From assembly GCA_958295465.1 (NCBI GenBank), contig OY282353.1, positions 5,075,001 through 5,139,000 on the forward strand: DNA of 64,000 nt, written 5' to 3'. Below are positions 5,837 through 47,195 of this stretch, in pieces. A model generated the notes under the pieces. The model searched no databases, was not told where the DNA came from, and saw nothing but the letters and a program-made list of their open reading frames with translations. Made by a program: the position numbers and the translations under genes. Position 1 is the stretch's first letter, and each line of letters begins with the position of its first letter. This DNA is from an uncultured Gammaproteobacteria bacterium. Its GTDB lineage: Bacteria; Pseudomonadota; Gammaproteobacteria; HK1.

Positions 5837-6819
5837 TGTCGCCGGCGAGCGCCAGCCATGCCGGCGGAGGCCGGCGAGGGGCCGATGTCGTTTCCGGTGG
5901 AGGCGGCGTGTCGATGCCGCGGGGGAAGGCGGGCGGCGGTGTGCTCCGCCGTCGCGAGCCTCTGGCCCGGCATACCGTATGGGGGATCGGAGGCGTCGCC
6001 GACCGGTACTTCGAACCGGCCGGCGTCAATGAGCTGGCGGCGTTTCTCGCGGACCTTTCCGAGGGCGAACCGCTGCTGTGGATCGGGCTCGGCAGCAACC
6101 TGCTGGTGCGGGACGGCGGGGTGCGCGGTACGGTCATCTCGACCGTCCGGCTACGTGCGGTGGAACGGCTCGGACCGGCGATCCTCCACGTCGAAGCCGG
6201 CGCCGCCTGCCCGCGCGTCGCCAGGCTCGCAGCGCGTTACCGGCTGACCGGATGCGAGTTCCTCGCCGGCATTCCCGGATCGATGGGCGGCGCGCTGGCG
6301 ATGAATGCCGGCGCCTTCGGGACCGAGACCTGGCCGGCGGTCCGCGAGGTCGAGACGATCGACGCCGCCGGCAAGCGGCGGTGGCGGCCCGCGTCCGACT
6401 ACCGGCATGGATACCGGACCCTGGACGGGCCGCGTGGAGAGTGGTTCGTGTCCTGCCGGATCGTCCTCGAACCGGATACGGAGGACCGGGCCGGCACCCG
6501 CATCCGCCAGCTTCTCGTCCAGCGCGCTGCGATGCAGCCGACCGGCGCGCGTAGCTGCGGCTCGGTGTTCCGCAACCCGCCCGGCGACTACGCCGGGCGC
6601 CTCATCGAGGCCAGCGGACTGAAGGGCCACCGCATCGGCGGTGCGGTGATCTCCGACAAGCACGCCAACTTCATCATCAACGACGCGGGCGCCCGGGCGG
6701 CCGACGTGGAGGCCCTGATCGGGAAGGTCGTCGCGGAGGTGGAGAAACGCCAGGGGGTTCGTCTCGAGCCGGAGGTGCGCATCATCGGAGAGGCGTCGTC
6801 CGAGGGAGCGGTGCGATGA
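5836..6819 (+). CDS. murB: UDP-N-acetylenolpyruvoylglucosamine reductase MurB
   Basis: MurB is a FAD enzyme that reduces UDP-GlcNAc-enolpyruvate to UDP-MurNAc using NADPH. From ATG 5836 (sharing its A with the murC stop) the product is 327 residues. Visible motifs are TVWGIGGVADRYF, GLGSNLLVRDGG, FLAGIPGSMGGALAMNAGAFG split as GIPGSMGGALAMNAGAFG, and CGSVFRNPPGDYAG with the catalytic serine. The absence of a long C-terminal insert fits the short (type II) MurB class. The first 26-35 residues are Gly/Ser/Ala rich and not part of the fold; an in-frame ATG at 5914 would remove them, so the start is uncertain. Confidence 0.95.
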   Translation: MSPASASHAGGGRRGADVVSGGGGVSMPRGKAGGGVLRRREPLARHTVWGIGGVADRYFEPAGVNELAAFLADLSEGEPLLWIGLGSNLLVRDGGVRGTVISTVRLRAVERLGPAILHVEAGAACPRVARLAARYRLTGCEFLAGIPGSMGGALAMNAGAFGTETWPAVREVETIDAAGKRRWRPASDYRHGYRTLDGPRGEWFVSCRIVLEPDTEDRAGTRIRQLLVQRAAMQPTGARSCGSVFRNPPGDYAGRLIEASGLKGHRIGGAVISDKHANFIINDAGARAADVEALIGKVVAEVEKRQGVRLEPEVRIIGEASSEGAVR

Positions 6820-7775
6820 GCATCGGACACCACCGGGACCTTCCACCGCCGCGCATCACGCGGTCGTCGGAGTTCGGGCGGGTGGCGGTGCTGTACGGCG
6901 GGACCTCGGCCGAGCGCGAGGTGTCGCTCGTCAGCGGTGCGGCGGTGCTTGCCGCGCTCGAACGCCGCGGTGTGGATGCGCGCGGGATCGATCGCGGCGA
7001 GGACGTGGCCGATCGGCTCATGCACGGCGGGTTCGACCGGGTGTTCATCATCCTGCACGGGCGCGGCGGCGAAGACGGCACGATCCAGGGTGCGCTGGAC
7101 ACACTGGGGTTCCCCTACACGGGAAGCGGCGTGCTCGGCTCCGCGCTGGCCATGGACAAGCATCGTTCGAAGCTCATGTGGCGCGCCTGCGGCGTCCCGA
7201 CCCCGGACTTCGTCATGCTCGAATCGGAACGCCGGCTCCCCGATGCCGGCGCCGCCCTCGGCTATCCGCTGGTGGTGAAGCCGGTGCACGAGGGATCGAC
7301 CATCGGGGTCTCGAAGGTGCGCGACGACGAATCGCTGCACCGCGCCTGGTTCGAGGCGTTGCGCTTCGACGACGAGATCATCGCCGAGCCGTTTCTGACC
7401 GGCCCCGAGTACACCGCGGCCATCCTGGGCGACGCCGAGCTCCCGCTGATCAGGCTCGAAACCCCGCACGAGCTTTACGACTACGAAGCGAAGTACGCCG
7501 ATGGGGCGGGCACCCGATACCACTGTCCGTGCGGCCTCGGCGAGCGCACCGAGACGACGTTCAAGCGACTGGCCAGGACCGCATTCGACGTGCTCGGGGC
7601 ATCGGGATGGGGACGGGTCGACTTCGTCTGCGACGGCGCCGGGAATCCGCACTTCATCGACGTGAACACCGCACCCGGGATGACCGGCCATTCCCTGGTG
7701 CCGATGGCGGCAGAGGCGATCGGGATCGACTTCGACGATCTCGTCTGGCGGATCCTGGAGACCAGCCTCCCATGA
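6816..7775 (+). CDS. ddl: D-alanine--D-alanine ligase
   Basis: This ATP-grasp enzyme joins two D-alanines to make the dipeptide that MurF adds to the stem peptide. The product is 319 residues, normal length, starting at an ATGA overlap with murB. Residues 21-34 carry RVAVLYGGTSAERE. They are followed by LHGRGGEDGTIQG, then VVKPVHEGSTIGVSKV in the ATP-grasp core, and the metal- and substrate-binding VNTAPGMTGHSLVP near the C-terminus. Its place between murB and ftsQ is the classical ddlB position of gammaproteobacterial dcw clusters. Confidence 0.96.
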   Translation: MSIGHHRDLPPPRITRSSEFGRVAVLYGGTSAEREVSLVSGAAVLAALERRGVDARGIDRGEDVADRLMHGGFDRVFIILHGRGGEDGTIQGALDTLGFPYTGSGVLGSALAMDKHRSKLMWRACGVPTPDFVMLESERRLPDAGAALGYPLVVKPVHEGSTIGVSKVRDDESLHRAWFEALRFDDEIIAEPFLTGPEYTAAILGDAELPLIRLETPHELYDYEAKYADGAGTRYHCPCGLGERTETTFKRLARTAFDVLGASGWGRVDFVCDGAGNPHFIDVNTAPGMTGHSLVPMAAEAIGIDFDDLVWRILETSLP

Positions 7776-8539
7776 GCACGCAGACGCTGGACTTCGATCT
7801 CGGCGAGGGCGGGCTGCCTCGTCCTGCCCGCCGCCCGCGCCAGGGGGTCCGCGCCCTGCTCGCCGCCATGATCGCGCTTGGCGTCGCGCTGCCGATTTTC
7901 GCCGCCGTCGTCACCCTGCCCGTGCAGTCGGTGCGCATCAGCGGCGAGTTCGTCCGGGTACCGAAGGCGGATATCGAGCGTGCGGTGGCGCCATTGCTCA
8001 CTTCGCGGCTGATCCGCATCGACGTGGACGCGCTCCGGCGCGCCGCGCTCGAGGTTCCCGGGGTGCGTGAAGCGACGGTCCGGCGAGTGTGGCCGGACCA
8101 CTTCGAGATCCTGGTGGTCGAGCATGTGGCGGTCGCACGCTGGGCGAGAGGCGGCTACCTCGGGAGCGACGGCACGCACTTTACACCGGGCGGTGGCGGG
8201 ATGGCCGATTCACTGCCGGTGCTCGCCGGCCCCGCAGGCTCGCAACGGCGTGTGCTCGATCTGCACGCCGCGCTCGAACGTGTGCTCGCGCCGCTTGGCG
8301 CGCCGGTCGCCGCCATCGAACTCACTCGACGGGGAGTGCTGCACGCGGCGCTTCATGACGGTCCGCGCCTGGTCATGCGGCCCGATGCGATGGGGCGCAA
8401 CGTCGAGATCCGTGCGAGAGCGCTCGCGAAAGTGCTGGCGGGCCGTCTCCATGAAGTCGAGCGCGTCGATCTCCGCTATCCGAACGGTTTCGCAGTCCGC
8501 ATGAAGACCGGTACTTCCGGTGGGAAGGAGCAGGGATGA
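7772..8539 (+). CDS. ftsQ: Cell division protein FtsQ
   Basis: FtsQ is a bitopic membrane protein that links early and late divisome proteins through the FtsQLB complex. ATG 7772 overlaps the ddl stop and gives 255 residues. A cytoplasmic tail of about 28 residues is followed by one membrane segment (ALLAAMIALGVALPIFAAVV). The POTRA domain begins VQSVRISGEFVRVPKADIE, and RRVWPDHFEILVVEHV is the typical strand region at its end. The FtsQ/DivIB domain fills the rest. The gene ends in an ATGA overlap with ftsA. Confidence 0.93.
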   Translation: MSTQTLDFDLGEGGLPRPARRPRQGVRALLAAMIALGVALPIFAAVVTLPVQSVRISGEFVRVPKADIERAVAPLLTSRLIRIDVDALRRAALEVPGVREATVRRVWPDHFEILVVEHVAVARWARGGYLGSDGTHFTPGGGGMADSLPVLAGPAGSQRRVLDLHAALERVLAPLGAPVAAIELTRRGVLHAALHDGPRLVMRPDAMGRNVEIRARALAKVLAGRLHEVERVDLRYPNGFAVRMKTGTSGGKEQG

Positions 8540-9768
8540 AGCGATCGGACAAGAACCTCATCGTGGGTCTCGATATCGGAACGTCGAAGGTGTCCGCCAT
8601 CGTCGGCGAGATCGTGGACGGCGACGGGATCGAGGTCATCGGGATGGGTATTCATCCATCGCGCGGATTGAAGAGGGGAGTGGTGGTGAACATCGAATCC
8701 ACCGTGCAGTCGATTCGGCGTGCGGTGGAAGAGGCGGAGCTGATGTCGGGGTGCCAGATCCATTCGGTGTTCACCGGAATCGCGGGCAGCCACATCCGCA
8801 GCCTCAACTCTCACGGTGTGGTGCCGATCCGTGACAAGGAAGTGACCCCGGGCGATGTGGACCGGGTCATCGATGCCGCAAGGGCCGTCGCGATCCCGTC
8901 CGATCAGCAGATCCTCCACACCATCCCGCAGGAATACATCATCGACGGCCAGGAAGGAATTCAGGAGCCGACCGGCATGTCGGGGGTGCGTCTGGAGTCG
9001 AAGGTCCACATGGTGACCGGCGCGGTCAGCGCGGCGCAGAACATCACCAAATGCGTGCGCCACTGCGGTCTCGAGGTCGACGACGTCATCCTCGAGCAAT
9101 TGGCATCGAGCGAGGCGGTGCTGCTCGACGACGAAAAGGAACTCGGCGTCTGTCTCGTCGACATCGGCGGCGGCACCACCGACATCGCGGTGTTCAGCGA
9201 CGGCGCCATCCGGCATACCGCGGTCATCCCCATCGCCGGGGATCACGTCACCAACGACATCGCGGTGGCATTGCGCACGCCGACCCAGTACGCCGAGGAG
9301 ATCAAGGTCAGACACGCGTGCGCGCTCGCGAAGCTCGCGGCGCCCGACGAGACCATCGAGGTGCCGAGCGTAGGCGATCGGCCTCCGCGCCGGCTCGCAC
9401 GCCAAATCCTGGGTGAGGTCGTCGAGCCGCGTTACGAAGAGCTGCTCGACCTCGTCCAGGCGGAGCTTCGCCGTAGCGGATTCGAGGATTTGGTCGCGGC
9501 CGGCATGGTACTGACCGGTGGCAGCTCGAAGATGGAGGGACTGATCGGGCTGGCCGAAGAAATCCTGCACATGCCGGTTCGGCTCGGCGTCCCGCATGCG
9601 GTTGCCGGCCTGACCGACACGGTTCGCAACCCAATCCACTCTACCGGTGTGGGTCTGCTTCAATTCGGCCACAAGCACGGGGCGCACCGCATACCGGCGG
9701 ATTCCGAAGGCGGGGGGTTCAAGGCGGTCATGAGACGGATGAAGAGCTGGTTCGAGGGCAATTTCTAG
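8536..9768 (+). CDS. ftsA: Cell division protein FtsA
   Basis: FtsA is an actin-fold ATPase that tethers FtsZ to the membrane and recruits the divisome. The product is 410 residues. The phosphate-1 loop is VGLDIGTSKVSAIVGE near residue 10, and VCLVDIGGGTTDIAVF is the phosphate-2 loop. The adenosine motif is GMVLTGGSSKMEGL. The C-terminal end, MRRMKSWFEGNF, has the form of the amphipathic membrane-targeting helix. It overlaps ftsQ by 4 bases and is separated from ftsZ by 72 bases, the widest gap in this operon so far, so ftsZ may have extra promoter input. Confidence 0.96.
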   Translation: MKRSDKNLIVGLDIGTSKVSAIVGEIVDGDGIEVIGMGIHPSRGLKRGVVVNIESTVQSIRRAVEEAELMSGCQIHSVFTGIAGSHIRSLNSHGVVPIRDKEVTPGDVDRVIDAARAVAIPSDQQILHTIPQEYIIDGQEGIQEPTGMSGVRLESKVHMVTGAVSAAQNITKCVRHCGLEVDDVILEQLASSEAVLLDDEKELGVCLVDIGGGTTDIAVFSDGAIRHTAVIPIAGDHVTNDIAVALRTPTQYAEEIKVRHACALAKLAAPDETIEVPSVGDRPPRRLARQILGEVVEPRYEELLDLVQAELRRSGFEDLVAAGMVLTGGSSKMEGLIGLAEEILHMPVRLGVPHAVAGLTDTVRNPIHSTGVGLLQFGHKHGAHRIPADSEGGGFKAVMRRMKSWFEGNF

Positions 9769-9840: not shown

Positions 9841-11046
9841 ATGTTCGAGTATGTCGAGACCACCAACAACGCGGTGATTCGCGTCATCGGGGTCGGCGGC
9901 GGCGGCGGCAACGCCGTCGAGCACATGTTGGCGAACAACGTCGAGGGCGTCGAGTTCTTCTGTGTCAACACCGATTACCAGGCACTGAAGAACAACTCCG
10001 TCTCCAGCGCCGAAGCCGTGCAGTTGGGCACCAACGTCACCAAGGGGCTCGGCGCCGGCGCCAATCCCGAGATCGGCCGCCAGGCGGCCCTGGAGGATCG
10101 CGAGCGTCTGGTCGATCTCCTCCAGGGAGCCGACATGGTGTTCATCACCGCAGGCATGGGCGGCGGCACCGGCACCGGCGCCTCTCCGATCATCGCGCAG
10201 ATTGCGCGGGAGATGGGGATCCTGACGGTCGCAGTGGTCACCAAGCCGTTCCCGTTCGAACTCAAGCGGCGGATGGCGATCGCGCAGGAGGGGATCGCCG
10301 AACTGAGCGAGCACGTGGATTCCCTCATCACCATCCCCAACGAGAAGCTGCTGAGCGTGCTCGAAGAGCGGATCACGCTGAAGGATGCGTTCGCGGCGGC
10401 GAACGACGTGCTGCTCGGTGCGGTGCAGGGGATCGCCGAGCTCATCACCCGCCCCGGCATGATCAACGTCGACTTCGCGGACGTGAAGACCGTGATGACG
10501 GAGAAAGGCCGGGCGATGATGGGATCGGGCAGGGGGACGGGCGAGGACCGCGCCAGAGCCGCGGCCGAGGCCGCCATGCGCTGCCCGCTCCTCGAAGACA
10601 TCAACCTGAAGGGCGCGCGCGGGATCCTCGTCAACATCACGGCCACGTCGGACCTGGGGATACACGAGGTTCGCGTGGCCGGGGATTCGATCGGCGAAGT
10701 CGCGTCGAAGGACGCCCTGGTGGTCATGGGGACCGCGCTCGACGAATCGGTGGGCGACGAGGTCCGGGTCACCGTCGTCGCGACGGGCCTCGACCACTCC
10801 GAGCAGCCGGCCGCCAAGCAGCCGGCCGCCAAGCAGCCGGTACGGCTGGTCAGCACGGAGCCGGCGCCGGGCAATGCGGCGTCCGGCGGCGCATCGGGAA
10901 ACTACTATCGCGACTTCGAGGTGCCGACCATCATTCGCAAGCAGCCGAACCGGGCGGAGCCTATCCCGATGAAGTTCGAGGACGACAGCGACAGCGACAG
11001 CGACCAACAGAGGATCCCGAGGTTCCTGCGCCTGCACAAGGACTGA
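9841..11046 (+). CDS. ftsZ: Cell division protein FtsZ
   Basis: FtsZ is the tubulin-like GTPase that forms the division ring. The product is 401 residues, preceded by the strong ribosome binding site AAGGAGAG ten or so bases before ATG 9841. The N-terminal [15 protein letters not shown] and the tubulin signature [13 protein letters not shown] (GTP-binding T4 loop) are intact, as is [11 protein letters not shown] in the T7 region. The variable linker holds a short duplicated AAKQP unit. The C-terminal [10 protein letters not shown] is the conserved tail peptide that binds FtsA and ZipA. Confidence 0.98.
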
Positions 11047-11269
11047 GGACCCGGCCTCGCGTGGTGCGCAAGCACTTCGAAAGGCCCCGTGCGAAGAAGG
11101 GCTCCGTGTCGTGCCGGCCGGAGTTTTATGTTAGCGTCCACATGTCGCAAACGAGGGATTTTCGTCTTGTGCTTCCCCCACCGTGCGTTCCCGCGGTTCC
11201 GGGACGTCATGGCGATGCATCGAGCGGGAACCTGTTGCAGATGAGTCGACGAGGGAAGCGGACAGCACG

Positions 11270-12181
11270 ATGATCAGGCAGTGTACGTTGAAGAACGTCA
11301 TCCGGGCGTCGGGCGTCGGGCTCCACAGCGGCCTGAAGGTCTACCTCTCGCTCAGGCCCGCTCCGCCGAATACCGGGATCGTTTTCCGGAGGGTCGATCT
11401 GGATGACGTGGTCGAGATCAAGGCATGTCCGGAGAACGTCGGAGACACCACGCTCTCCACCACGCTGGGCCGCGGTGACGCCTGCGTGTCCACGGTCGAG
11501 CACCTGCTCTCGGCGATGGCGGGACTCGGCATAGACAACGCGTACGTGGACGTGAGCGCGCCGGAAGTGCCGATCATGGACGGCAGCGCGGGTCCGTTCG
11601 TCTTCCTCATCCAGTCCGCCGGCGTCAGGCAGCAGAACGCTCCGAAGCAGTTCATCCGGATCAGGAAGCCGGTGGCGGTGAAGGAAGGAAGCAAGTGGGC
11701 GTGCTTCGAGCCCTTCGAAGGATTCAAGGTCTCGTTCTCGATCGAGTTCGACCATCCCGCGTTCCGCCGCAGCACGAGCAAGGCGACGGTGGATTTCTCG
11801 ACAACCTCTTTCGTGAAGGAAGTCAGCCGGGCGCGCACCTTCGGATTCATGCGTGATCTCGAACGGCTGCGCGAGAACAACCTCGCCCTCGGCGGCACCC
11901 TCGACAACGCCATCATCGTCGACGACTACCGTGTGCTCAACGAAGACGGACTGCGCTACGAGGACGAGTTCGTCAAGCACAAGGTGCTGGACGCCATCGG
12001 CGATCTGTACCTGCTGGGCCACAGCCTCATCGGGTTCTTCAACGGCCACAAGTCGGGCCACAAGCTCAACAACAAGCTCCTGAAGACCTTGGTTGCCGAC
12101 AAGAACGCATGGGAGATCGCCACCTTCGACGATCAGGTCGACGTACCCATCATCTACATGCAACCGGTCACCGCGACATAG
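11270..12181 (+). CDS. lpxC: UDP-3-O-acyl-N-acetylglucosamine deacetylase LpxC
   Basis: LpxC performs the committed zinc-dependent deacetylation of lipid A synthesis, so this bacterium makes lipopolysaccharide. The start ATG 11270 gives 303 residues, and [20 protein letters not shown] is the standard N-terminus. The zinc ligands are visible as H78 ([14 protein letters not shown]), H237 and D241 ([18 protein letters not shown]), with the substrate loop [10 protein letters not shown]. The gene lies 223 bases after ftsZ, as is usual at the end of gammaproteobacterial dcw clusters. That gap probably holds its own promoter, but I cannot point to convincing boxes. Confidence 0.97.
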
Positions 12182-12415
12182 CCCCGGCGGAAGACCCGCG
12201 ATACGACCACCACCGCGGCGGCTCTCCGGAAGAGGAGAACACCGGCCCATGCTCCGGGCCGGGACCGGACGGCCTCCCCGCCGGGCGTTGCGGATCGAGT
12301 GTCGGTCCATGCGCGACGGCGCCTCCCTCCATCCCGGGTCCCGGATCGGCGACATGGCGCAAGGACCCGGCCGCGACCGGCCGGCAGAGCGCTCCGGGAG
12401 GGGATACGCCGGCGC

Positions 12416-12739
12416 TCAGCACACCGGACGGACTCGAATCTCGATCCGGTCGAGATCCTTGCGGCCGAGCAGGCGAGCGACATGGGCGACGATCCGTGGC
12501 GCAAGAAAGCGCAGGCGCGCCCCCCGGGCCGCGGAGTCGACGACGACGACGATGGCGCCGCCTTCGATTGCGGCGACCCGGAGGCTTTCCGCCCCGGGCA
12601 GGTCAAGGTAGCCTTTGAGGGATTCTTCGCAACGCCTCAGTTCGTCCGCGTGCCTTGCCAGTGTTCCGAGGACGGACCTGTCGCCGGCCAGGACGGAGCG
12701 GATCGTCTTCCATGGACGGGAGCGTTCGGAACGAGGCAC
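12416..12739 (-). CDS. dciA: DciA-like DUF721 protein
   Basis: The product is a DUF721 protein of the DciA family, the ancestral loader of the DnaB replicative helicase. The conserved part runs from about WKTIRSVLAG to the C-terminal DRIEIRVRPVC, with a leucine-rich middle and the strand AIVVVVDSAARGARLRFLAP. GTG 12739 is preferred because GGAAAG lies five bases upstream, giving 107 residues; the frame is open further, to 12826, but would then run into the secA promoter area. Its divergent position next to secA, with lpxC on the other side, is the usual context in this group. Function in this organism is inferred from family and neighbours. Confidence 0.75.
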   Translation of the reverse strand: MPRSERSRPWKTIRSVLAGDRSVLGTLARHADELRRCEESLKGYLDLPGAESLRVAAIEGGAIVVVVDSAARGARLRFLAPRIVAHVARLLGRKDLDRIEIRVRPVC

Positions 12740-12828
12740 CGTACTTTCCGGTCGAACGGAAACTGCACACAGGCTAGATGGAAACACCACCCATCGCAAA
12801 GACATCGCACGGACATCCGCACGCAACC

Positions 12829-37905: not shown

Positions 37906-38823
37906 ATGGAGACCACCGCAACAACACCGTCCCGGCGAACGTCGACCCTGTGCCTGGCCACGGCGACAACCACGGATTTTCTGCCTGGAACCATCGTCAC
38001 CATAGGCTCCTTCCTGAAACATCACCCGGGCTTTGATGGCGAAGTCGTAATCATTGAAGACGGGCTGTGCGAGGAGTACCGGGAGTTGCTGCGCACTTTG
38101 CATGGTTGCGTGCGGTTGGTCCCCGTGTCATCCGAGCTCCAAGCTCGAATAGCGCAGCTCACGGCCGCGCGCCCGGACATTCAGGACCGCGCCGCCCGGT
38201 TCTTCGCCATTGAGGCGTTGCGCCTGGCTGGATACCGCAAGGTGCTGTTCTGCGACAGCGACTTGCTGTTCCGGGCGCCGGTGGAGGAACTGTTCGACAC
38301 CGACGAAGCGCTGCTGTGCTGCGGCGACAGGGCGGCTCTGGAGAACAAGCACCGGGATGCCGCCACCTTCCTGCGCATGCAGCCGGAAAGTGGGGAGGAC
38401 GCCGCCGCTGTCCTGGAGCGGACATTCAACAGCGGGTTCCTGGTCATGGACGCCGGCGTTGTCGGGGAACGCACTTATGGGAAGCTGCTGGCGATGTTGA
38501 CGCCGGAGATGTGGCGCGGCATCGGCACGCCCCACACCGCGCAAGTCCTGCTGAACAGATATTTCGCCGGGCGGCAGACGCTGATCAGCTCGACCTACAA
38601 CTATCTGCTGGCTTCGGCGCCGGCCATTCGGTCCCGGGAGGGTCTGGGGGTGGCGGACGCCAAGGTCCTGCATTTCAATGTTCCCGGCAAGCCCTGGATG
38701 CCCCTGCGGTTACTCCGTTGGACGTGCGACGTCAAGCCGGTCCCCGGCATGTTGTTGTGGTGGGAGGCATGGGCGGACTGCCTGTCCACCCTGCACCTTT
38801 CAACAGGTGATTTCTTCAGGTGA
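37906..38823 (+). CDS. GT8-like glycosyltransferase (nucleotide-diphospho-sugar transferase fold)
   Basis: The product is 305 residues from ATG 37906. The N-terminal strand-loop LCLATATTTDFLPGTIVTI and HHPGFDGEVVIIEDGL, then YRKVLFCDSDLLFRAPVEEL with the metal-binding DSD at 117-119, mark a GT-A fold glycosyltransferase of the GT8/glycogenin-like group. KVLHFNVPGKPWMP near residue 250 is the typical His-containing C-terminal motif of this family. It is a paralogue of the minus-strand gene at 39582 (both contain ELFDTDEALLCCGDR). It probably glycosylates a peptide, protein or small molecule made by the adjoining cluster. Confidence 0.8.
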   Translation: METTATTPSRRTSTLCLATATTTDFLPGTIVTIGSFLKHHPGFDGEVVIIEDGLCEEYRELLRTLHGCVRLVPVSSELQARIAQLTAARPDIQDRAARFFAIEALRLAGYRKVLFCDSDLLFRAPVEELFDTDEALLCCGDRAALENKHRDAATFLRMQPESGEDAAAVLERTFNSGFLVMDAGVVGERTYGKLLAMLTPEMWRGIGTPHTAQVLLNRYFAGRQTLISSTYNYLLASAPAIRSREGLGVADAKVLHFNVPGKPWMPLRLLRWTCDVKPVPGMLLWWEAWADCLSTLHLSTGDFFR

Positions 38824-38859: not shown

Positions 38860-39570
38860 ATGATTCAACTGGCAGCCGGCGGCCCCAGCGTTGTCAAAGA
38901 CGACGAATGGATGGCGCAGCAGCATGAATTTGCGCACCGCCATTGCGTTGTGTTCAAGGGCTTTGTTGATGAATCCATGTTGAACCGCATCTCCCGGATG
39001 CTGGAAACGAGCCAGTACTATGGCCGCGAAGACGTTAGAGAGGGCGGGGTGTGGTCCAGGGAACTTACAATGCGGGACGATGAACCACTGGTGACGGCAT
39101 TTGTGCTTCTTCTCAATCAACCTCGGCTGTTCAAGGCAATTGCCGAGCTCACTGGTTCCAAAAGAGAAATTCGAATTTTCGAAGGCCGATGCTTTAAGCG
39201 TGTTCCGAACAGCAACCACTTTGATTCCTGGCACAACGATCGCCAACCGGGAAGGCTGTATGGACTAAGCATAAATTTGTCGCAAAAACCCGTGGAGGGT
39301 GGCGCTTTTCAAATTCGAAGCAAAAAAACCGGGGAGATTTTGCGAACGGTTCCGCCGAGTCGGTTTGGGGATGCGCACCTGTTTCGGGTGCATGGATCTC
39401 TTGAGCACAAAGTCTCCTCGGTGCAGGGAACCGAGCCGAGGTGTGTTTATGCGGGGTGGTTTTGCGGAGGGCCCGACTATCAGGACTATCGGGAGATGAT
39501 CCGAAAAGAGTTGTTTGCTCGTGCTGCCAGCATCCCGACGCCTCAAGCACGTTGGAATTGTATATTTTGA
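38860..39570 (+). CDS. 2-oxoglutarate/Fe(II)-dependent oxygenase
   Basis: The product is 236 residues. The facial triad of a prolyl-hydroxylase-like or clavaminate-like oxygenase is visible: H125-x-D127 in FDSWHNDRQPG, distal H183 in LEHKV, and the 2-oxoglutarate-binding R194 in EPRCVYAGWF. GLSINLSQKPVEGGAFQIR is the core strand region. It follows the GT8-like gene by 36 bases on the same strand, so the two probably form an operon converging on the minus-strand cluster. Codon use is less GC-rich than in the core genes. A hydroxylase of a peptide side chain is a plausible role. Confidence 0.78.
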   Translation: MIQLAAGGPSVVKDDEWMAQQHEFAHRHCVVFKGFVDESMLNRISRMLETSQYYGREDVREGGVWSRELTMRDDEPLVTAFVLLLNQPRLFKAIAELTGSKREIRIFEGRCFKRVPNSNHFDSWHNDRQPGRLYGLSINLSQKPVEGGAFQIRSKKTGEILRTVPPSRFGDAHLFRVHGSLEHKVSSVQGTEPRCVYAGWFCGGPDYQDYREMIRKELFARAASIPTPQARWNCIF

Positions 39571-39581
39571 AGAGAGAAGCG

Positions 39582-40484
39582 TTAAGGAACCAGCGCCGGA
39601 TACGCCGTCCGCAGATGCAGCTTCGCCAAGACTTCCAGGTAGGCATCGTACCAGAGCTTGAAGAGCGTGGCTGGGGTTCGATACGCGAGTTCGGCGCCAC
39701 CATGTGCCCAGCGCAGCATCGCGTCCGGCGTCCAAGGCTTCACCGGCCCCTTGAAATGCAGCACCTTCGCAAGCTCGGCGTTGAGGCCGGTGCGCTCCCG
39801 CACCTCCGCCGCCTCGGGCACGAAATAATTGTAAGTCCAGCTCGTCAGCGTCTGACGGCCCGCGAAGTAGCGGTTCACGACGGGTTGATCCGTAAGCCGG
39901 ATATTCAAGTTGCGCCACACCTCCGGCGCCATCAGCGCCAGCAAATCCGCATACACCCGCGGACCCGCGCAGGCGCCGTCGATGAGCATGAAGCCGCAGT
40001 TGAAGGGGCACTCCAAGACCGGTCGATCCGTGCGCCCTTGCAGCGCGAGACCGGTGTCGGGGTCGCGCTGCCGGTTCAGGACGAACTGTCGGTCGCCGCA
40101 GCACAGCAGCGCTTCGTCGGTGTCGAACAGTTCGTCAACCGGCGCGAGGAACAGCATGTCGCTGTCGTAGTACAGCACCTTGCGATAGCCGTCCAGGCGA
40201 AACGCGTCCAGCGCAAGGAACATGGGCGGGAGAATGGGTCGGCTTGGGTAAGCCGCCTTGAGATGCGCCACTCGGTCGAGCAGTTCCGGCGCGACCGGTT
40301 GGAACCGCACAAGCGGCGCCACCGCTTCGAGCACCGCGCACGACTCTTCGGTCAGGCCATCGTGAAGGACGATCACATCACCGTCGAATCCGGGATGATG
40401 ACGTCGAAACGAGCCCAGCATGGCGATGGCGCCGGGCAGGAAGTCATCCGTAACGGCGGTGACCAGGCAGACGTTCGCGGTCAC
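39582..40484 (-). CDS. GT8-like glycosyltransferase
   Basis: The product is 300 residues and closely similar to the plus-strand gene at 37906. MTANVCLVTAVTDDFLPGAI opens the GT-A fold, the DSD metal motif is at 107-109 in YRKVLYYDSDMLFLAP, and KVLHFKGPVKPWTPDAMLRW is the C-terminal His motif. It is the last gene of the minus-strand operon headed by the precursor-like peptide at 46208, overlapping the sulfotransferase-like gene before it by 4 bases. Only 11 bases separate its stop from that of the convergent oxygenase. Confidence 0.8.
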   Translation of the reverse strand: MTANVCLVTAVTDDFLPGAIAMLGSFRRHHPGFDGDVIVLHDGLTEESCAVLEAVAPLVRFQPVAPELLDRVAHLKAAYPSRPILPPMFLALDAFRLDGYRKVLYYDSDMLFLAPVDELFDTDEALLCCGDRQFVLNRQRDPDTGLALQGRTDRPVLECPFNCGFMLIDGACAGPRVYADLLALMAPEVWRNLNIRLTDQPVVNRYFAGRQTLTSWTYNYFVPEAAEVRERTGLNAELAKVLHFKGPVKPWTPDAMLRWAHGGAELAYRTPATLFKLWYDAYLEVLAKLHLRTAYPALVP

Positions 40485-41401
40485 AGGAGGTCGTATCCGA
40501 AGTGGTCGAGCACGTCTCGATGCCGTCGGAAGACATGCGAGAACGCCGCGACCCGCCGGGCGTCAAGGCGGGCGATCTGCCGAGCGTTCATGTCATTGAG
40601 CGTCTCGCAATAGCGACCCTTCACCGGCAACTGTTGTCGAAGGTTCAGATCGTCGATTTCCGGCACCAAGGTGCGCACAGCACACACCACCCGCTCCGGC
40701 TCGGCGCACATTGTCTCGTAGGTGAAGAACGTCCCGCGGTGGCCGTGCTTTTCGACATTGCGGCGTTGCCACGCCAAACAGGTGACGGCATGAGTGGCGG
40801 CAAGCTCATCCAGGGTTCGTTCCGGAAAGAGGGCCGCCAAAGCCGCAAGCTCGTGGGGTCGGTAGCGCCGGTAGCACCGTAGGAGGCCCTCGCAAACCGC
40901 GTAGGGGTTGCGCACCATGAACAGGAACTTCGCGTTGCGGAAGTGCCGCACGAGCTCATCCACGATCACCAGATGCGGTGGCGACTTGGTGTAGAAAACC
41001 GATGCCGCAGGGTCGCGGGCGTAGGCTTGGAAATACCACGCAACGCGGGAGCGCCTCCAATTGTACGCCGCAGGGTTTGCAAACCGCTCGAGCCAGCGGC
41101 GCTCGGCGGCCCAGAAAAGGCCCGGCGGCGGGTCGCCGGGGTCGAGCGGCTGAAAGTTGACCGGCCCAACGAAACCCGTCATGCGCTGACCCTCCACGGG
41201 GAGGTTCCAGGTGGCGCGGCAGGTCGCCAGCGCCTTTTGCAGGAAGGTGGAGCCGCTGTTGTTCGGACAGATTCCGAACAGATGGGTCGTCACGGCCTGC
41301 GCCACGCCGCAAGTGGCGCCATAGTGCAGGGGGTTGTCGCCGACGACGGTGAAGCTCCGACCGGCGAGATGCGATTGCACGGTGCGCATTGCGGCCACCA
41401 T
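40481..41401 (-). CDS. Sulfotransferase-like protein (third of three)
   Basis: The product is 306 residues from ATG 41401 (an in-frame ATG lies at codon 5). The PAPS 5'-phosphosulfate loop is LFGICPNNSGSTFLQKAL (residues 41-58), and AKFLFMVRNPYAVCEGLL is the 3'-phosphate-binding segment with Arg-Asn-Pro. The C-terminal end HFGYDLL is shared with the other two sulfotransferases in the operon, showing they arose by duplication. It starts 2 bases after the asparagine-synthetase-like gene. A role in sulfating the peptide product or a sugar attached to it is inferred. Confidence 0.75.
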   Translation of the reverse strand: MVAAMRTVQSHLAGRSFTVVGDNPLHYGATCGVAQAVTTHLFGICPNNSGSTFLQKALATCRATWNLPVEGQRMTGFVGPVNFQPLDPGDPPPGLFWAAERRWLERFANPAAYNWRRSRVAWYFQAYARDPAASVFYTKSPPHLVIVDELVRHFRNAKFLFMVRNPYAVCEGLLRCYRRYRPHELAALAALFPERTLDELAATHAVTCLAWQRRNVEKHGHRGTFFTYETMCAEPERVVCAVRTLVPEIDDLNLRQQLPVKGRYCETLNDMNARQIARLDARRVAAFSHVFRRHRDVLDHFGYDLL

Positions 41402-41403
41402 CT

Positions 41404-43308
41404 TTAGAAGTCGAGCAGCATCAGGGCATTGCTGATGGCGGCAAAGTGGCGCTTGGATCGGAAGCGGTCCGCGTCCAGGCGGGCGAGGAGGCGCGGCAGG
41501 TCAACGTACCGGGCGCGTGACGGCGTCCCGGCCAGCGCCTCAATCCGCCGTCGAACGATGGGCAGCGACTCGGCGAAGGCATCTATCGTCGATTCGTACC
41601 TGATCGGGTCGCTTTTGCTCGAATTCCAGCAGATCCCATCCGGCAGGACGGCGCCGCCGGGCAGGGACAACGCATAACGCATCAGCCAACGGCCCCAAGG
41701 TCCTCGCCGATACTGATCCGGCGGCAGGCCCAGCGCAAACTCCAGCACCCGGCGGTCCAGCAGCGGATAGCGGTATTCGACGCCGTGGCGCAAGCCGCTC
41801 GCCGCCCAGCCCTCGATGCGGTCGTCCAGCCTCCCATCCTGCATAATCCGTAGCTGTGTGCGCCTTAAGCTCACCTGGCGAAAAAATCGATGCGGCGGGG
41901 GCCTTACCTGCCGTGCGAATGCCGGGTTGATGAGCCAGCGCCGACGCTCAAGCGCCCGGTGCGAACGCGGCCCCCACAAAGGACGGCGACGCCGCAGATG
42001 GAATGGCAGGCGTGGATGCAGCAACGGGGCCAGCACATCCGCCAAAAACCTGAGCGGGCTTCCACCTTGCGCTCGGCAGATGGCGTGGAGCGTCCGCCAC
42101 CGCCCGCTCAAGAGCAAATATGCGTTGTATCCACGGCCGTTGAACGAAATGCCTTCATCCCCGCCCCAGCCCGACAGCAGCACCCGTACCCCTTGGGCCG
42201 CAGCGCAACGTTGCACGGCCTCCTCGTTGAGCTGGACCTGCACACCTGGATAGGCCCCGTCACGCTGATGGACAGCGGCAATGTCTTCCGGGCTGGGTGA
42301 CCTGTGGTGTACTTGCAGCCCTTCGCGGGCGCAGAGGTCGTGGATGAGGCCGTACTCTGACGCATGGCGCTCATCGGGGGGGCGGCTCGGCACTGGCAGC
42401 CAGCTGAAGGCAAGCGGCGGCGGGCGGCCCTCGCGCCGCAATGCACGGGCGGCGAGCGCCGCGATGCTCGACGAGTCCAAGCCTCCACTCAGATGCACAC
42501 CCATCGGATCCGGGCCGTGCAGGCGGTCCCGCACCGCTTGCTCGTAGAGCTCCAGAAACTGCTCTGCGTAGTCTTCATCCGAAGCGGGCCGCGCTCGGGG
42601 CGTGTGCTCCGGGCGCCAATGCCGCTCCAGCTTCGTTCGAATGCGCCCCGGCACAGCCGATGCGCGCTCGGCCCCCACCTTGACGGTGAGCGCATGGCCG
42701 GGCGGCAGCCTGCGCACCGCCTTGAACAACGTCCGGGTGCGGTTTATCCCCCTTGTCCCCAACATGGCGCTGCGCGTCAGAAAAGCCGCCACGCCTGCCT
42801 CATCAAGCGCATCGGGGACACCGGGGGCGGCGACTACCGCATCGACGGTGCCGCCGAAAACAAAGACCGCCGGCATCCGTGCGTAGTAGAACGGCCGGAC
42901 GCCGATGGGGTCACGGGCGCACAACAGCGTGCGCCGCCGACCGTCCCACACGGCGAAGGCGAAGTCGCCAAGCAGTCGTTCCGGACAGAGCCGGCCCCAG
43001 CGCATGTAGGCGCGGAGGACAAGATCGGCGTCGGCGAGGCCGAGCCGCTCGGCACGGCGGATGTTCAGCAGGTCACACAACCCCTCGCGGTCGTCAAGGC
43101 GAGCGGCCGCAGCGACGGCGACTCCGCTCTCCTGATGCGTACGCAACGACGAATCGGGCGCGGAGGTGCTGCGTACGCCAAGGGCGACCGCTCCGTCCGT
43201 CCAGTGCGCCTCGTCTGCTCGACCATCGCCGGCATGCGCCGCGAACATGGCCGCCACCGCTTCTCCGGCCGCCGCACCGCCGAGACAGCCGCAGATGATT
43301 GCCGTCAT
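41404..43308 (-). CDS. Asparagine-synthetase-like protein, lasso-cyclase-like
   Basis: The product is 634 residues. Residues 1-200 are a glutamine-amidotransferase-like domain (LGDFAFAVWDG, ARDPIGVRPFYY), but there is no Cys at position 2 (MTAIICG), so glutaminase activity is probably lost. The ATP-pyrophosphatase loop HLSGGLDSSSIAAL is at 272-285, with LLSGWGGDEGISFNG and VEYRYPLLDRRVLEFALGLP after it. This form (inactive amidotransferase, intact synthetase, YPLLDRR and CWNSSKSDP end) is the one seen in lasso-peptide macrolactam cyclases. It lies in an operon headed by a precursor-like peptide, so cyclase or amide-ligase function is likely; plain asparagine synthesis is the alternative. Confidence 0.8.
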   Translation of the reverse strand: MTAIICGCLGGAAAGEAVAAMFAAHAGDGRADEAHWTDGAVALGVRSTSAPDSSLRTHQESGVAVAAAARLDDREGLCDLLNIRRAERLGLADADLVLRAYMRWGRLCPERLLGDFAFAVWDGRRRTLLCARDPIGVRPFYYARMPAVFVFGGTVDAVVAAPGVPDALDEAGVAAFLTRSAMLGTRGINRTRTLFKAVRRLPPGHALTVKVGAERASAVPGRIRTKLERHWRPEHTPRARPASDEDYAEQFLELYEQAVRDRLHGPDPMGVHLSGGLDSSSIAALAARALRREGRPPPLAFSWLPVPSRPPDERHASEYGLIHDLCAREGLQVHHRSPSPEDIAAVHQRDGAYPGVQVQLNEEAVQRCAAAQGVRVLLSGWGGDEGISFNGRGYNAYLLLSGRWRTLHAICRAQGGSPLRFLADVLAPLLHPRLPFHLRRRRPLWGPRSHRALERRRWLINPAFARQVRPPPHRFFRQVSLRRTQLRIMQDGRLDDRIEGWAASGLRHGVEYRYPLLDRRVLEFALGLPPDQYRRGPWGRWLMRYALSLPGGAVLPDGICWNSSKSDPIRYESTIDAFAESLPIVRRRIEALAGTPSRARYVDLPRLLARLDADRFRSKRHFAAISNALMLLDF

Positions 43309-43361
43309 GTCGGCCTCTCCATCCTATGGACTTGCAGCAAACCTGCGGCCGGCGGGCGCCG

Positions 43362-44231
43362 CTAGGTTCCTGCGCCGTCATTCGGCCAGATTGTGCAGGT
43401 CATGGCGAACCTTGCGTCCGTGAAGCGGTCCGTCCCGCAGACCACGCGAGTGACCTCATGCACATAGGCGCCGGGATGGAAGACGACGCTGTTGGCGGCC
43501 GGCTCGACCCGCGAGAACGCGCAGGCATCGAAGTCCCCCGTCTCGACTTCCGTATCGTAGAGCAACAAGTCGCCACCGGAGAAGCGGCGCGGCTGCGCAT
43601 GAAAATAGCAGTTGCCGACAAGGGGTGGCGAATCGCGATGCGGGCGGCCGTAGCCCCCGTTGAGATACGCCACCGCCGCCGGGACGATCCGGCAGCTATC
43701 GAAACCCTGCAGCCGCAGCCGCGCCGAGACGGTTGGCAGCACGGCGCGCACCTTCGGGACGAGCCATGCGCCAATGTCTTTGCAGGCTTTGGGAGGCGCC
43801 GCCAGTCCGCGGCGTTCGGAGATGTCAACTCGGCGCTTTCCACTTGGCCCCACCTTCGCCGGCGCGAAGCGTCCGCGCGCGTTCTGCGCCCACGACAACA
43901 AGCGTTCTCCCTCTGCGGAGGTCAGGAAGTTCGGAATCTGCACGAACGGCGCCGCCCGAACGCCCGTTGGCGACGCCGGCAAACGGTGGCTGCCGGTGAT
44001 CGCGCACAGCCAAGAGGCGCAAGGGTCGCCGGGGCGGAGTGCGCACAAGCGCCGATAAGTCTGGTGTGCGGCCGTAAAGCGGCCGTTCCCCCGCTCGATG
44101 TCTCCGAGCTGCCGCAATGCGTCGGCGTCAAGCGTGCGTCGCTGCAAGGCCGCCGCGGCCTGAGCGTGGAGACCTCCTGTGCCCAGCAGCGCATGTCGCA
44201 CCTCAGGGCGCAGCCAAATCGAGCTTGTCAC
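43362..44231 (-). CDS. 2-oxoglutarate/Fe(II)-dependent oxygenase with N-terminal TPR-like helices
   Basis: The product is 289 residues. Residues 30-75 look like one TPR unit (DALRQLGDIERGNGRFTAAH, YRRLCALRPGDP). From about residue 95 it is a prolyl-4-hydroxylase-type domain: H198-x-D200 in GRPHRDSPPL, SGGDLLLYDTE, H258 in HPGAYVHEVTRV and R274 near the C-terminal FAMTCTIW. It overlaps the sulfotransferase upstream by 4 bases (ATGA) and precedes the asparagine-synthetase-like gene by 53 bases. It resembles oxygenases that hydroxylate peptides or protein side chains. Confidence 0.78.
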   Translation of the reverse strand: MTSSIWLRPEVRHALLGTGGLHAQAAAALQRRTLDADALRQLGDIERGNGRFTAAHQTYRRLCALRPGDPCASWLCAITGSHRLPASPTGVRAAPFVQIPNFLTSAEGERLLSWAQNARGRFAPAKVGPSGKRRVDISERRGLAAPPKACKDIGAWLVPKVRAVLPTVSARLRLQGFDSCRIVPAAVAYLNGGYGRPHRDSPPLVGNCYFHAQPRRFSGGDLLLYDTEVETGDFDACAFSRVEPAANSVVFHPGAYVHEVTRVVCGTDRFTDARFAMTCTIWPNDGAGT

Positions 44232-45109
44232 AGGAGGTCATAGCCGAAATGGTCGAATACGTTCCCATGCCGTCGGAACACCCGGTTGCACAGCGCAACC
44301 TGCCCGGCGTCAAGGCGGGATATTTGCCGAGCGTTCATGTCGGTGAGCACGCTGTTGTACCTGCCCTTGACCGACAAGCGTTGCCGCAGGTTGAGGTCGT
44401 CGATTTGCGGAACCAGATCCCGGATGGTTTGCGCCACCCGCTCCGGCTCGGCGCACAGCGTCTCGTAGGTGAAGCACAGGCCCTGTGCGCCGTAGCTCTC
44501 CATGTTGCACCGCTGCTGCTCCAGGCTTGCCGCCACATGCAGCGCCGCCGCGGTCTCCAGCCGCTCGCCGTCAACCGCCACAGGCTGGTTGCGCTGCATC
44601 CGGCGGCGCAGCGCCCTGCAAATCCCCTCGCATAGCGCGTAGGGGTTGCGGACCAGGAACAGGAATCTCGCGTTGCGGAAATACCGGGCCAGCTCGCCGA
44701 CAATGAACGGATGCAGGTTGGTGACGAACACCGACGCCCGAGGAGCGTGCGCCCACGCCTGGAAGTACCATGCCTTGCGGGTGCGCGGCCAGTCATAGGC
44801 TTCCGGGTCCGACAGGACGTCAAGCCATTGCGGCCGGGACGCCGGGATGCGGTTGGAGCCGGTCAGCCGGCGGTCGTTCGCAGGGTCCGGCCCTCCGTAG
44901 CCAAGCGCCGTGCGGCCTTCCCCGAGCAGGTTCCATGTTTGCCGACTGGTCGCCAGCGCGGTGCGCAGAAACGTGGTGCCGCTGTTGTTTGGCGCAATCA
45001 GGAACAGATGGGTCGTCACGATGCGGTCGAGGTCATGGCGGGCGCCGTAGGCGGTGCAGTCCCGAAGCTGGCTATGGGCCGAAACACCGGGTGGTTCCAG
45101 CGTGGTCAC
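44228..45109 (-). CDS. Sulfotransferase-like protein (second of three)
   Basis: The product is 293 residues from GTG 45109, which overlaps the previous stop (GTGA). The open frame extends upstream inside the neighbouring gene, but that part is shadow. Motifs are LFLIAPNNSGTTFLRTAL (PAPS loop, residues 36-53) and ARFLFLVRNPYALCEGI, and the C-terminal end is HFGYDLL. The P-x-x-S-G-T-T loop is the best preserved of the three copies. The family transfers sulfate from PAPS to hydroxyl groups on sugars, lipids or tyrosine. Confidence 0.76.
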   Translation of the reverse strand: MTTLEPPGVSAHSQLRDCTAYGARHDLDRIVTTHLFLIAPNNSGTTFLRTALATSRQTWNLLGEGRTALGYGGPDPANDRRLTGSNRIPASRPQWLDVLSDPEAYDWPRTRKAWYFQAWAHAPRASVFVTNLHPFIVGELARYFRNARFLFLVRNPYALCEGICRALRRRMQRNQPVAVDGERLETAAALHVAASLEQQRCNMESYGAQGLCFTYETLCAEPERVAQTIRDLVPQIDDLNLRQRLSVKGRYNSVLTDMNARQISRLDAGQVALCNRVFRRHGNVFDHFGYDLL

Positions 45110-45936
45110 AGCAGGTCGTAGCCGAAATGGTCGAGTATCTCCCGATGCCGGCGGAACACCCGGCCAAGTGTCGCCACCTGCCCGGGGTCCAGGCGGGAGA
45201 TTTGCCAGGCGTTGAAGTCGGTGGGCAAGCAGTTGTATTTGCCCTTTACCAACAGGCGTTGCCGCAGGTTGAGGTCGTCGATTTCCGGGATCAGGCCCTG
45301 GATGGCGTGCGCCACGCGCTCCGGCTCCGCGCACATGTCCTCGTAGGTAAAGAAAATCCCGCGGTCTCCATATGCGTCAAGGTTGAGACGCTGCCGGGAC
45401 AGGCAGGCCACGACATGGGCAGCGGCCGTCTCGGGTAGGCTTCGCCCCGGAAAACGGGCGGTGAACGCCGCCATTCCAAGGTCCCGGTAGTACCGGCACG
45501 GGCTTTCGCAGACGGCGTAGGGATTGCGCACCATGAACAGGAACTTGGCGTTGCGAAAGCGCCGCGCCAAATCGCCCGCAATCAGCAGATGCGGCGGTGA
45601 CTTGGTGTAAAAAACCGACGCTGCCGGGTCGCGGGCCTGAGCTTGGAAATACCACGCCTTGCGGATCAGCGCCCAGTCATACCGCGCCGAGTCCGCCAAC
45701 CGATCAGCTCGGCGGCGGCCTGCCGCCCAGAGCACGGTAGCGGCCACAGGGTCGGCGAACCCCAACGCCAGATGGCCCTCCGTGAGGAGGTTCCACGTTT
45801 TTTTGGAAGTGCCCAACGCCTCCTTCAAGAGCGTCCAGCCGCTGTGGTTCGGGCTGATGCCGAACAGATGGGTCGTTACCTCATGCGCCACATCGTGGGT
45901 GGCTCCATAACAGGTCATGGTCGCCGATGTCCGCAT
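45106..45936 (-). CDS. Sulfotransferase-like protein (first of three)
   Basis: The product is 276 residues from ATG 45936; an in-frame stop just upstream excludes a longer start. The PAPS loop is LFGISPNHSGWTLLKEAL (residues 24-41), with His and Trp where the other copies have Asn and Thr or Ser, so its activity is less certain. AKFLFMVRNPYAVCES and the shared C-terminal HFGYDLL are present. It is the first enzyme gene after the precursor-like peptide gene, 101 bases downstream of its stop. That gap contains a short hairpin (46006-46020). Confidence 0.75.
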   Translation of the reverse strand: MRTSATMTCYGATHDVAHEVTTHLFGISPNHSGWTLLKEALGTSKKTWNLLTEGHLALGFADPVAATVLWAAGRRRADRLADSARYDWALIRKAWYFQAQARDPAASVFYTKSPPHLLIAGDLARRFRNAKFLFMVRNPYAVCESPCRYYRDLGMAAFTARFPGRSLPETAAAHVVACLSRQRLNLDAYGDRGIFFTYEDMCAEPERVAHAIQGLIPEIDDLNLRQRLLVKGKYNCLPTDFNAWQISRLDPGQVATLGRVFRRHREILDHFGYDLL

Positions 45937-46005
45937 AGGCCGGCCCCGCCTGGTTCAAAATTCGACGAAGCTGCGGCGCAAGGCCAAGCACAAGCAACAT
46001 CCAGG

Positions 46006-46020
46006 CCGCCCATCTGGCGG
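46006..46020 (-). promoter_or_regulatory. Small hairpin between the precursor-like gene and the first sulfotransferase
   Basis: CCGCC at 46006-46010 and GGCGG at 46016-46020 pair around a five-base loop. It lies 18 bases after the precursor stop and before the sulfotransferase gene. Such hairpins often give partial termination or mRNA stabilisation so that the precursor is made in excess over the enzymes. There is no U-run, so it is not a full terminator. Confidence 0.35.
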
Positions 46021-46037
46021 ATCAAAGGGAAAGCAGC

Positions 46038-46208
46038 TCAGGATGGGCGATAGGACGCTTCCTCGACCTCATTCACCTGAACATGTTCGCCACTGTTAGT
46101 TCGCGCCATCCGGTGCAAGGGAAGAATCCTCGGCTTTGACCAAGGGCGCTTCTCTTTCGGTCCTTCAGCCGCGGACTCACCTGTTTCGGGGGGGATTCGA
46201 TCCTTCAT
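46038..46208 (-). CDS. Lasso-type RiPP precursor-like peptide (56 residues)
   Basis: ATG 46208 follows GGAGGT by five bases and the frame runs 56 codons to TGA at 46038. The peptide starts MKDRIPPETGESAAEG and continues KEKRPWSKPRILPLHRMA. A W-x-x-P-x-I motif (W23, P26, I28) resembles the Y-x-x-P-x-L motif by which lasso leaders are recognised. Counting from Gly40 as core residue 1, W is at -17, P at -14 and I at -12, the spacing of lasso leaders; the usual Gly at -8 and Thr at -2 are His and Asn. The proposed core GEHVQVNEVEEASYRPS has Glu at position 8, right for a Gly1-Glu8 macrolactam. It heads an operon with a cyclase-like protein. Its class is inferred, since B1 and B2 partners are missing nearby. 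Confidence 0.65.
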   Translation of the reverse strand: MKDRIPPETGESAAEGPKEKRPWSKPRILPLHRMARTNSGEHVQVNEVEEASYRPS

Positions 46209-46213
46209 CTCTT

Positions 46214-46219
46214 ACCTCC
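46214..46219 (-). promoter_or_regulatory. Consensus Shine-Dalgarno of the precursor-like gene
   Basis: On the minus strand GGAGGT sits five bases before ATG 46208. It is the strongest ribosome binding site in this region and the main reason to accept a gene this small. Immediately upstream the DNA (TTTGAATTT) is AT-rich and could be part of a promoter, but I cannot place boxes with confidence. Confidence 0.75.

Positions 46220-46289: not shown

Positions 46290-47195
<906 letters not shown>

Follow-up and report, generated by a model that had tools for sequence, protein, structure and literature searches.

A sulfotransferase-rich operon, probably for a lasso peptide and dependent on a remote hub for the recognition and cleavage of its leader

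The operon presented here is probably a satellite lasso peptide locus, the product of which would be matured by the leader-recognition protein B1 and the leader protease B2 of a distant hub acting in trans, and tailored by enzymes encoded next to the precursor. It belongs to a stretch of 64,000 nucleotides (64 kb), henceforth the window, of the 5.68-Mb single-contig genome of an uncultured gammaproteobacterium. The original prediction placed at 46038-46208 of the minus strand a 56-codon gene with a GGAGGT site, heading a series of sulfotransferases, a 2-oxoglutarate (2OG) oxygenase, an asparagine-synthetase-like protein and a family 8 glycosyltransferase (GT8). Both the gene and its ribosome-binding site are where they were proposed to be, and Pfam recovers the whole set, with three Sulfotransfer_3 proteins (PF13469), a TPR/2OG oxygenase, an Asn_synthase + GATase_7 protein and a GT8 enzyme (Table 1). 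The junctions of 101, -4, -4, 53, 2 and -4 bases likewise hold, provided that ST2 is read from the GTG at 45109. Two convergent genes of the same system, GT8b and OG2, fall outside the span considered at first.

Table 1. Features of the satellite operon and of its convergent neighbours (window positions)
Feature	Position	Strand	Remarks
Lasso-type precursor gene, 56 aa	46038..46208	-	Leader 46092-46208; leader motif, orthologs
Ribosome-binding site GGAGGT	46214..46219	-	5 nt from ATG; GGAGG invariant in four orthologs
ST1, sulfotransferase	45106..45936	-	PF13469
ST2, sulfotransferase	44228..45109	-	PF13469; GTG start, 4-base overlap with ST1
OG1, TPR + 2OG/Fe(II) oxygenase	43362..44231	-	PF13640 sub-threshold; predicted prolyl-hydroxylase-like fold
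Putative lasso macrolactam synthetase (C protein)	41404..43308	-	Asn-synthetase-like, without Cys2; Asn_synthase + GATase_7
ST3, sulfotransferase	40481..41401	-	PF13469; model nearest tyrosylprotein sulfotransferases
GT8a, glycosyltransferase family 8	39582..40484	-	Pfam GT8
OG2, second 2OG-Fe(II) oxygenase	38860..39570	+	PF13640; convergent; homologs in other lasso loci
GT8b, second GT8	37906..38823	+	Convergent; longest ORF starts 37822; homologs in other lasso loci

The best NCBIfam match of the asparagine-synthetase-like protein is the lasso cyclase model NF033535, at 305 bits for a cut-off of 525, asparagine synthase scoring 155 bits; with 374 bits, the Priestia cyclase, which adjoins annotated B1 and B2, is also under that cut-off. 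The window cyclase has no counterpart of Cys2, the catalytic residue of glutaminases, and in a phylogenetic tree it groups with cyclases encoded beside B1 and B2, non-lasso amidotransferases making up a separate group (100/100). There is one exception in this tree, the Priestia reference itself, linked to B1 and B2 and carried by a long branch, which falls beside the non-lasso group. The eventuality raised in the original prediction, that the cyclase would cluster with asparagine synthetases, has thus not materialized: it stands apart from the AsnB, XrtA and NAGGN amidotransferases, and its position together with the missing Cys2 leads us to reject a true asparagine synthetase. GT8 and sulfotransferase genes are found in polysaccharide loci as well, so that one might see here a surface-polysaccharide operon, with a synthetase that merely makes asparagine or amidates a sugar and a short gene that is incidental; given the same tree and the same missing residue, and given that in many genomes the set comes together with this short gene, this explanation is scarcely credible. 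From its sequence, the protein would be the ATP-dependent macrolactam synthetase, or C protein, of a lasso peptide. On plasmids, searches with the cyclase gave matches at 25-40% identity only, with no copy of the window cluster among the matches listed, and the sulfotransferase family gave one weak Rhodoferax match.

The leader spacing of the precursor agrees with what had been proposed, W23, P26 and I28 lying at -17, -14 and -12 from Gly40, and so does the acid at core position 8, Glu47 being the eighth residue from Gly40. The predicted core is GEHVQVNEVEEASYRPS (46041-46091), possibly extended by Ser39 (46092-46094). Its N-terminus could be Ser39, with Thr37 at -2 and a ring of 9 residues, or Gly40, with W-x-x-P at -17/-14, Thr37 at -3 and a ring of 8; either way Glu47, which is kept in four orthologs, falls within core positions 7-9. 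The leader motif, KRPWSKPxI, is common to 71 other sequences, which brings the precursor set to 72, with 69 alignable cores. A profile search places at least 22 related genes in the source genome, where the consensus across the lasso loci reads K-[RK]-[PA]-W-x-[KE]-P-x-[IVL]-R. The original prediction depended on homologous operons having a conserved short gene at this position, and they do: syntenic orthologs in three other genomes (L062-L064) and the many paralogs in the source genome take the gene beyond chance. These orthologs keep the leader motif, Glu47 and the YRPS end, the residues in between being variable. No precursors were recovered from fragmented drafts of congeneric genomes, an uninformative absence since repeat-rich loci may be lost there.

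Across the 72 precursors, the leader gives way to a conserved [S/T/G]-G, the C-terminal residue is Ser in 66, as in paeninodin-type peptides, and all but one (71/72) have a Tyr within their last 11 residues, mostly fourth or fifth from the end; in 45 of these 71, a Glu precedes that Tyr by four positions. Residue 8 or 9 from Gly is acidic in 46 of the 69 cores, whereas shuffling gave 19.6 ± 3.7 and, over 2000 shuffles, at most 34, a comparison that overstates independence because most of these precursors are related. About a quarter of the precursors have their conserved Glu at 10 or later, beyond the usual ring of 7-9 residues. This spread, 8-12 residues from the conserved Gly, and the failure of the NCBIfam precursor models to match any of the four peptides scanned would suit a distinct lasso-like class, made of non-threaded side-chain macrocycles of variable size. 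We hold that alternative to be quite unlikely: a ring of 8 or 9 residues fits most precursors, and the context of B2, B1, kinase and nucleotidyltransferase (NTase) genes is that of known lasso clusters (PMC8498205).

Two orphan precursor-like sequences (L139 at C1:413614 and L143 at C1:809797) have no cyclase or sulfotransferase gene within several kilobases. Locus L024 contains a divergent subfamily: its two near-identical cyclases (6688-8658 and 10830-12797) share 29% identity with the other ones, its three precursors (4529-4681, 6402-6605 and 10620-10769) lack the Tyr of the tail, and it has a PF00685 sulfotransferase instead of any nearby PF13469 gene. Beside the lasso locus L021, a 92-residue nitrile-hydratase-alpha-like leader peptide (11654-11932, NHLP type) hints at another class of ribosomally synthesized and modified peptides (RiPPs).

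The original prediction noted that B1 and B2 were lacking and concluded that they act in trans or that the locus belongs to a different RiPP class. The 64-kb window indeed encodes no PqqD or B2 homolog, and the search of the genome for PqqD-like and transglutaminase-like proteins that had been recommended located three B1 proteins and one B2, all outside the window. The single B2, at C1:3260908, is the only Transglut_core3 protein above cut-off; it passes the cut-off of the NCBIfam lasso B2 model (NF033537), retains the Cys and the His characteristic of B2, is fused to a nucleotidyltransferase domain (NTP_transf_5) and adjoins an ABC transporter gene. One of the three PqqD-like proteins, all of them over the PF05402 cut-off, is encoded about 17 kb away from it, at C1:3278248. 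This hub (C1:3.259-3.278 Mb) is some 1.9 Mb from the window operon. Opposite this single leader protease, the NCBIfam lasso cyclase search identifies 13 lasso-cyclase-like genes in the genome, 11 of which match the window cyclase at E <= 1e-60, and the lasso loci share sulfotransferase, GT8 and 2OG oxygenase genes at about 40-60% identity. The window operon has many counterparts in this respect: roughly a dozen such satellites are dispersed over the genome, each apparently making a lasso peptide decorated by sulfotransferases, an oxygenase and glycosyltransferases.

Counts of cyclases, B2, B1 and precursors, in this order, were made in the source genome (11/1/3/22, the last being a minimum) and in eight further genomes: G002 (6/1/3/8, one cyclase being a partial match), G005 (4/1/3/5), G055 (9/1/5/23), G056 (6/1/2/18), G057 (3/1/2/7), G058 (1/2/2/2), G059 (4/1/5/5, again with one partial cyclase) and G060 (1/1/1/5). 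A surplus of cyclases over B2 is common in this group and is found in most of the complete related genomes, G058 and G060 being the exceptions; G058, with two B2 for one cyclase, counts against action in trans. As one B2 and three B1 lie elsewhere in the genome, and as compact relatives have all parts together, we infer that both proteins are supplied in trans; a different RiPP class is weakened by the same facts.

Nothing ties the tailoring enzymes to lasso biosynthesis more strongly than these compact relatives. In L081, from a Gemmatimonadota record, and in the Pontixanthobacter loci L098, L099 and L101, a single locus carries NTase, B2, PqqD, HPr-kinase-like, cyclase and GT8 genes together with two sulfotransferase types; an ABC transporter is present in all but L099, and a precursor was recognised in all but L101. 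More generally, the scan for the sulfotransferase family reached chromosomes of uncultured Pseudomonadales and Gammaproteobacteria, as well as records labelled Gemmatimonadetes, Verrucomicrobia, Pyrinomonadaceae, Alteromonas, Methylophaga, Pontixanthobacter and Citromicrobium. The same cluster type appears in metagenome-assembled genomes labelled Gemmatimonadetes, Verrucomicrobia and Pyrinomonadaceae (L081, L082, L090, L093 and L094). Since L081 and L082 are very alike, while labelled Gemmatimonadetes and Gammaproteobacteria, one label may be wrong or a transfer recent.

It could be argued that the lasso class is right and yet that the locus is silent or decaying, satellite operons without in-line B1 and B2 being leftovers of duplication. 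Fragments of cyclase, sulfotransferase or GT8 genes in some paralogous loci, and out-of-frame starts in several precursors, speak for such decay. The genes of the window operon, by contrast, are all intact, and mostly syntenic at 92-96% identity in the three other genomes; between the window precursor and that of L063, dN/dS is about 0.54 overall and the leader is more constrained than the core (0.083/0.204 against 0.237/0.315), values that rest on few substitutions. Decay thus seems an unlikely fate for this operon. The tandem of ST1 and ST2 (44228-45936) varies among these relatives, a single gene occupying the same place in each of them, ST1-like in L063 and ST2-like in L062 and L064.

The starts of the precursors have a further peculiarity. 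Poly-C tracts of 9-33 bases lie between the start codon and the leader motif of 32 of the 72 precursors, for example in L021, L019 and L015; the start is in frame in 17 of these and out of frame in the other 15. The source genome has 12 C-tracts of at least 16 bases, seven of them in precursor leaders and one in another lasso locus; yet another is a run of 45 G on the plus strand (46793-46837), which precedes the window precursor by some 600 bases on its upstream side. The window precursor and its orthologs differ in their tract (C7, C7, C14 and C15), all being in frame. Such variation may reflect phase variation, or else homopolymer or assembly error. A broader scheme can be imagined, in which one hub of B1, B2 and transporter would serve a dozen dispersed cyclase and tailoring loci and more than 20 precursors, phase-variable through their leader poly-C, in a genome-wide combinatorial production of sulfated and glycosylated lasso peptides; we put it forward as a tentative and rather doubtful extension of the satellite reading.

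Which chemistry the local enzymes perform can be approached from predicted folds. The best matches of the sulfotransferase model are CurM and mostly the tyrosylprotein sulfotransferases TPST1/2 (13 matches reach E <= 0.001, and 10 of them are TPST1/2 or chains thereof), while the oxygenase model resembles PiuC and prolyl-4-hydroxylases. As pLDDT values are moderate (71 and 70, respectively) and TM-scores low (about 0.5 for the sulfotransferase), these models fix the fold, not the substrate; their matches make tyrosine sulfation and proline hydroxylation the leading guesses, and local tailoring probably involves sulfation of tyrosine.

The satellite operon would then supply the precursor, the macrolactam synthetase and a tailoring set of three PAPS-dependent sulfotransferases, two 2OG oxygenases and two GT8 glycosyltransferases, the hub contributing leader recognition (the PqqD-like B1) and cleavage (the NTase-B2 fusion). 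B1 would first bind the W-x-x-P-x-I motif of the leader. Tailoring enzymes would act next on the tail, most likely by sulfating the conserved Tyr53; they might also hydroxylate Pro55 and add a hexose to one of the tail hydroxyls. B2 would then cut just before Ser39 or Gly40, and finally the synthetase would join the freed amine to Glu47, closing a ring of 9 or 8 residues in what is presumably a threaded macrolactam.

Lasso clusters are normally self-contained. If one leader protease does serve many cyclases, then genome mining based on clusters misses such loci, and the window locus would look incomplete to it. On the same reading, lasso engineering would gain a set of over 70 leaders naturally matched to their cores and synthetases, and peptide sulfation by bacteria could be put to the test in a lineage not yet cultured.

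That lasso clusters can carry genes for an HPr kinase and a sulfotransferase is already published: both occur in some clusters of anaerobes (PMC4289311), and a sulfotransferase is noted in some clusters of Firmicutes, according to the work of Zhu (2016c) as cited in PMC8498205. Our literature search for sulfated lasso peptides returned such gene-level mentions and no sulfated product, and the text of a review of lasso peptide modifications (PMC9266682) has no word starting with 'sulf'. Human TPST1/2 are among the nearest solved folds of the sulfotransferase model, and the presumed substrates keep a Tyr with nearby acids; identity is about 14%. Canucin offers a parallel for the oxygenases, CanE being a 2OG enzyme that hydroxylates the linear lasso precursor with help from B1 (PMC9266682); OG1 differs from it by its TPR domain and its predicted prolyl-hydroxylase-like fold. 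The closest known systems remain paeninodin, the C-terminal Ser of which is phosphorylated by HPr-kinase homologs, and pseudomycoidin, to which an NTase adds hexose, the nucleotidyltransferase being sometimes fused to B2 in clusters of these types (PMC8498205, PMC9266682). Unlike these, the window operon lacks B1, B2 and a kinase, and an HPr-kinase homolog is missing from the remainder of the window as well; it has several PF13469 sulfotransferases, GT8 enzymes and oxygenases resembling prolyl-4-hydroxylases, and it is one of many loci in a genome with one B2. The conserved C-terminal Ser, the NTase-B2 fusion and the PqqD-type B1 of the source genome, and the HPr-kinase-like genes at its other loci and in most relatives, are what the present system shares with them.
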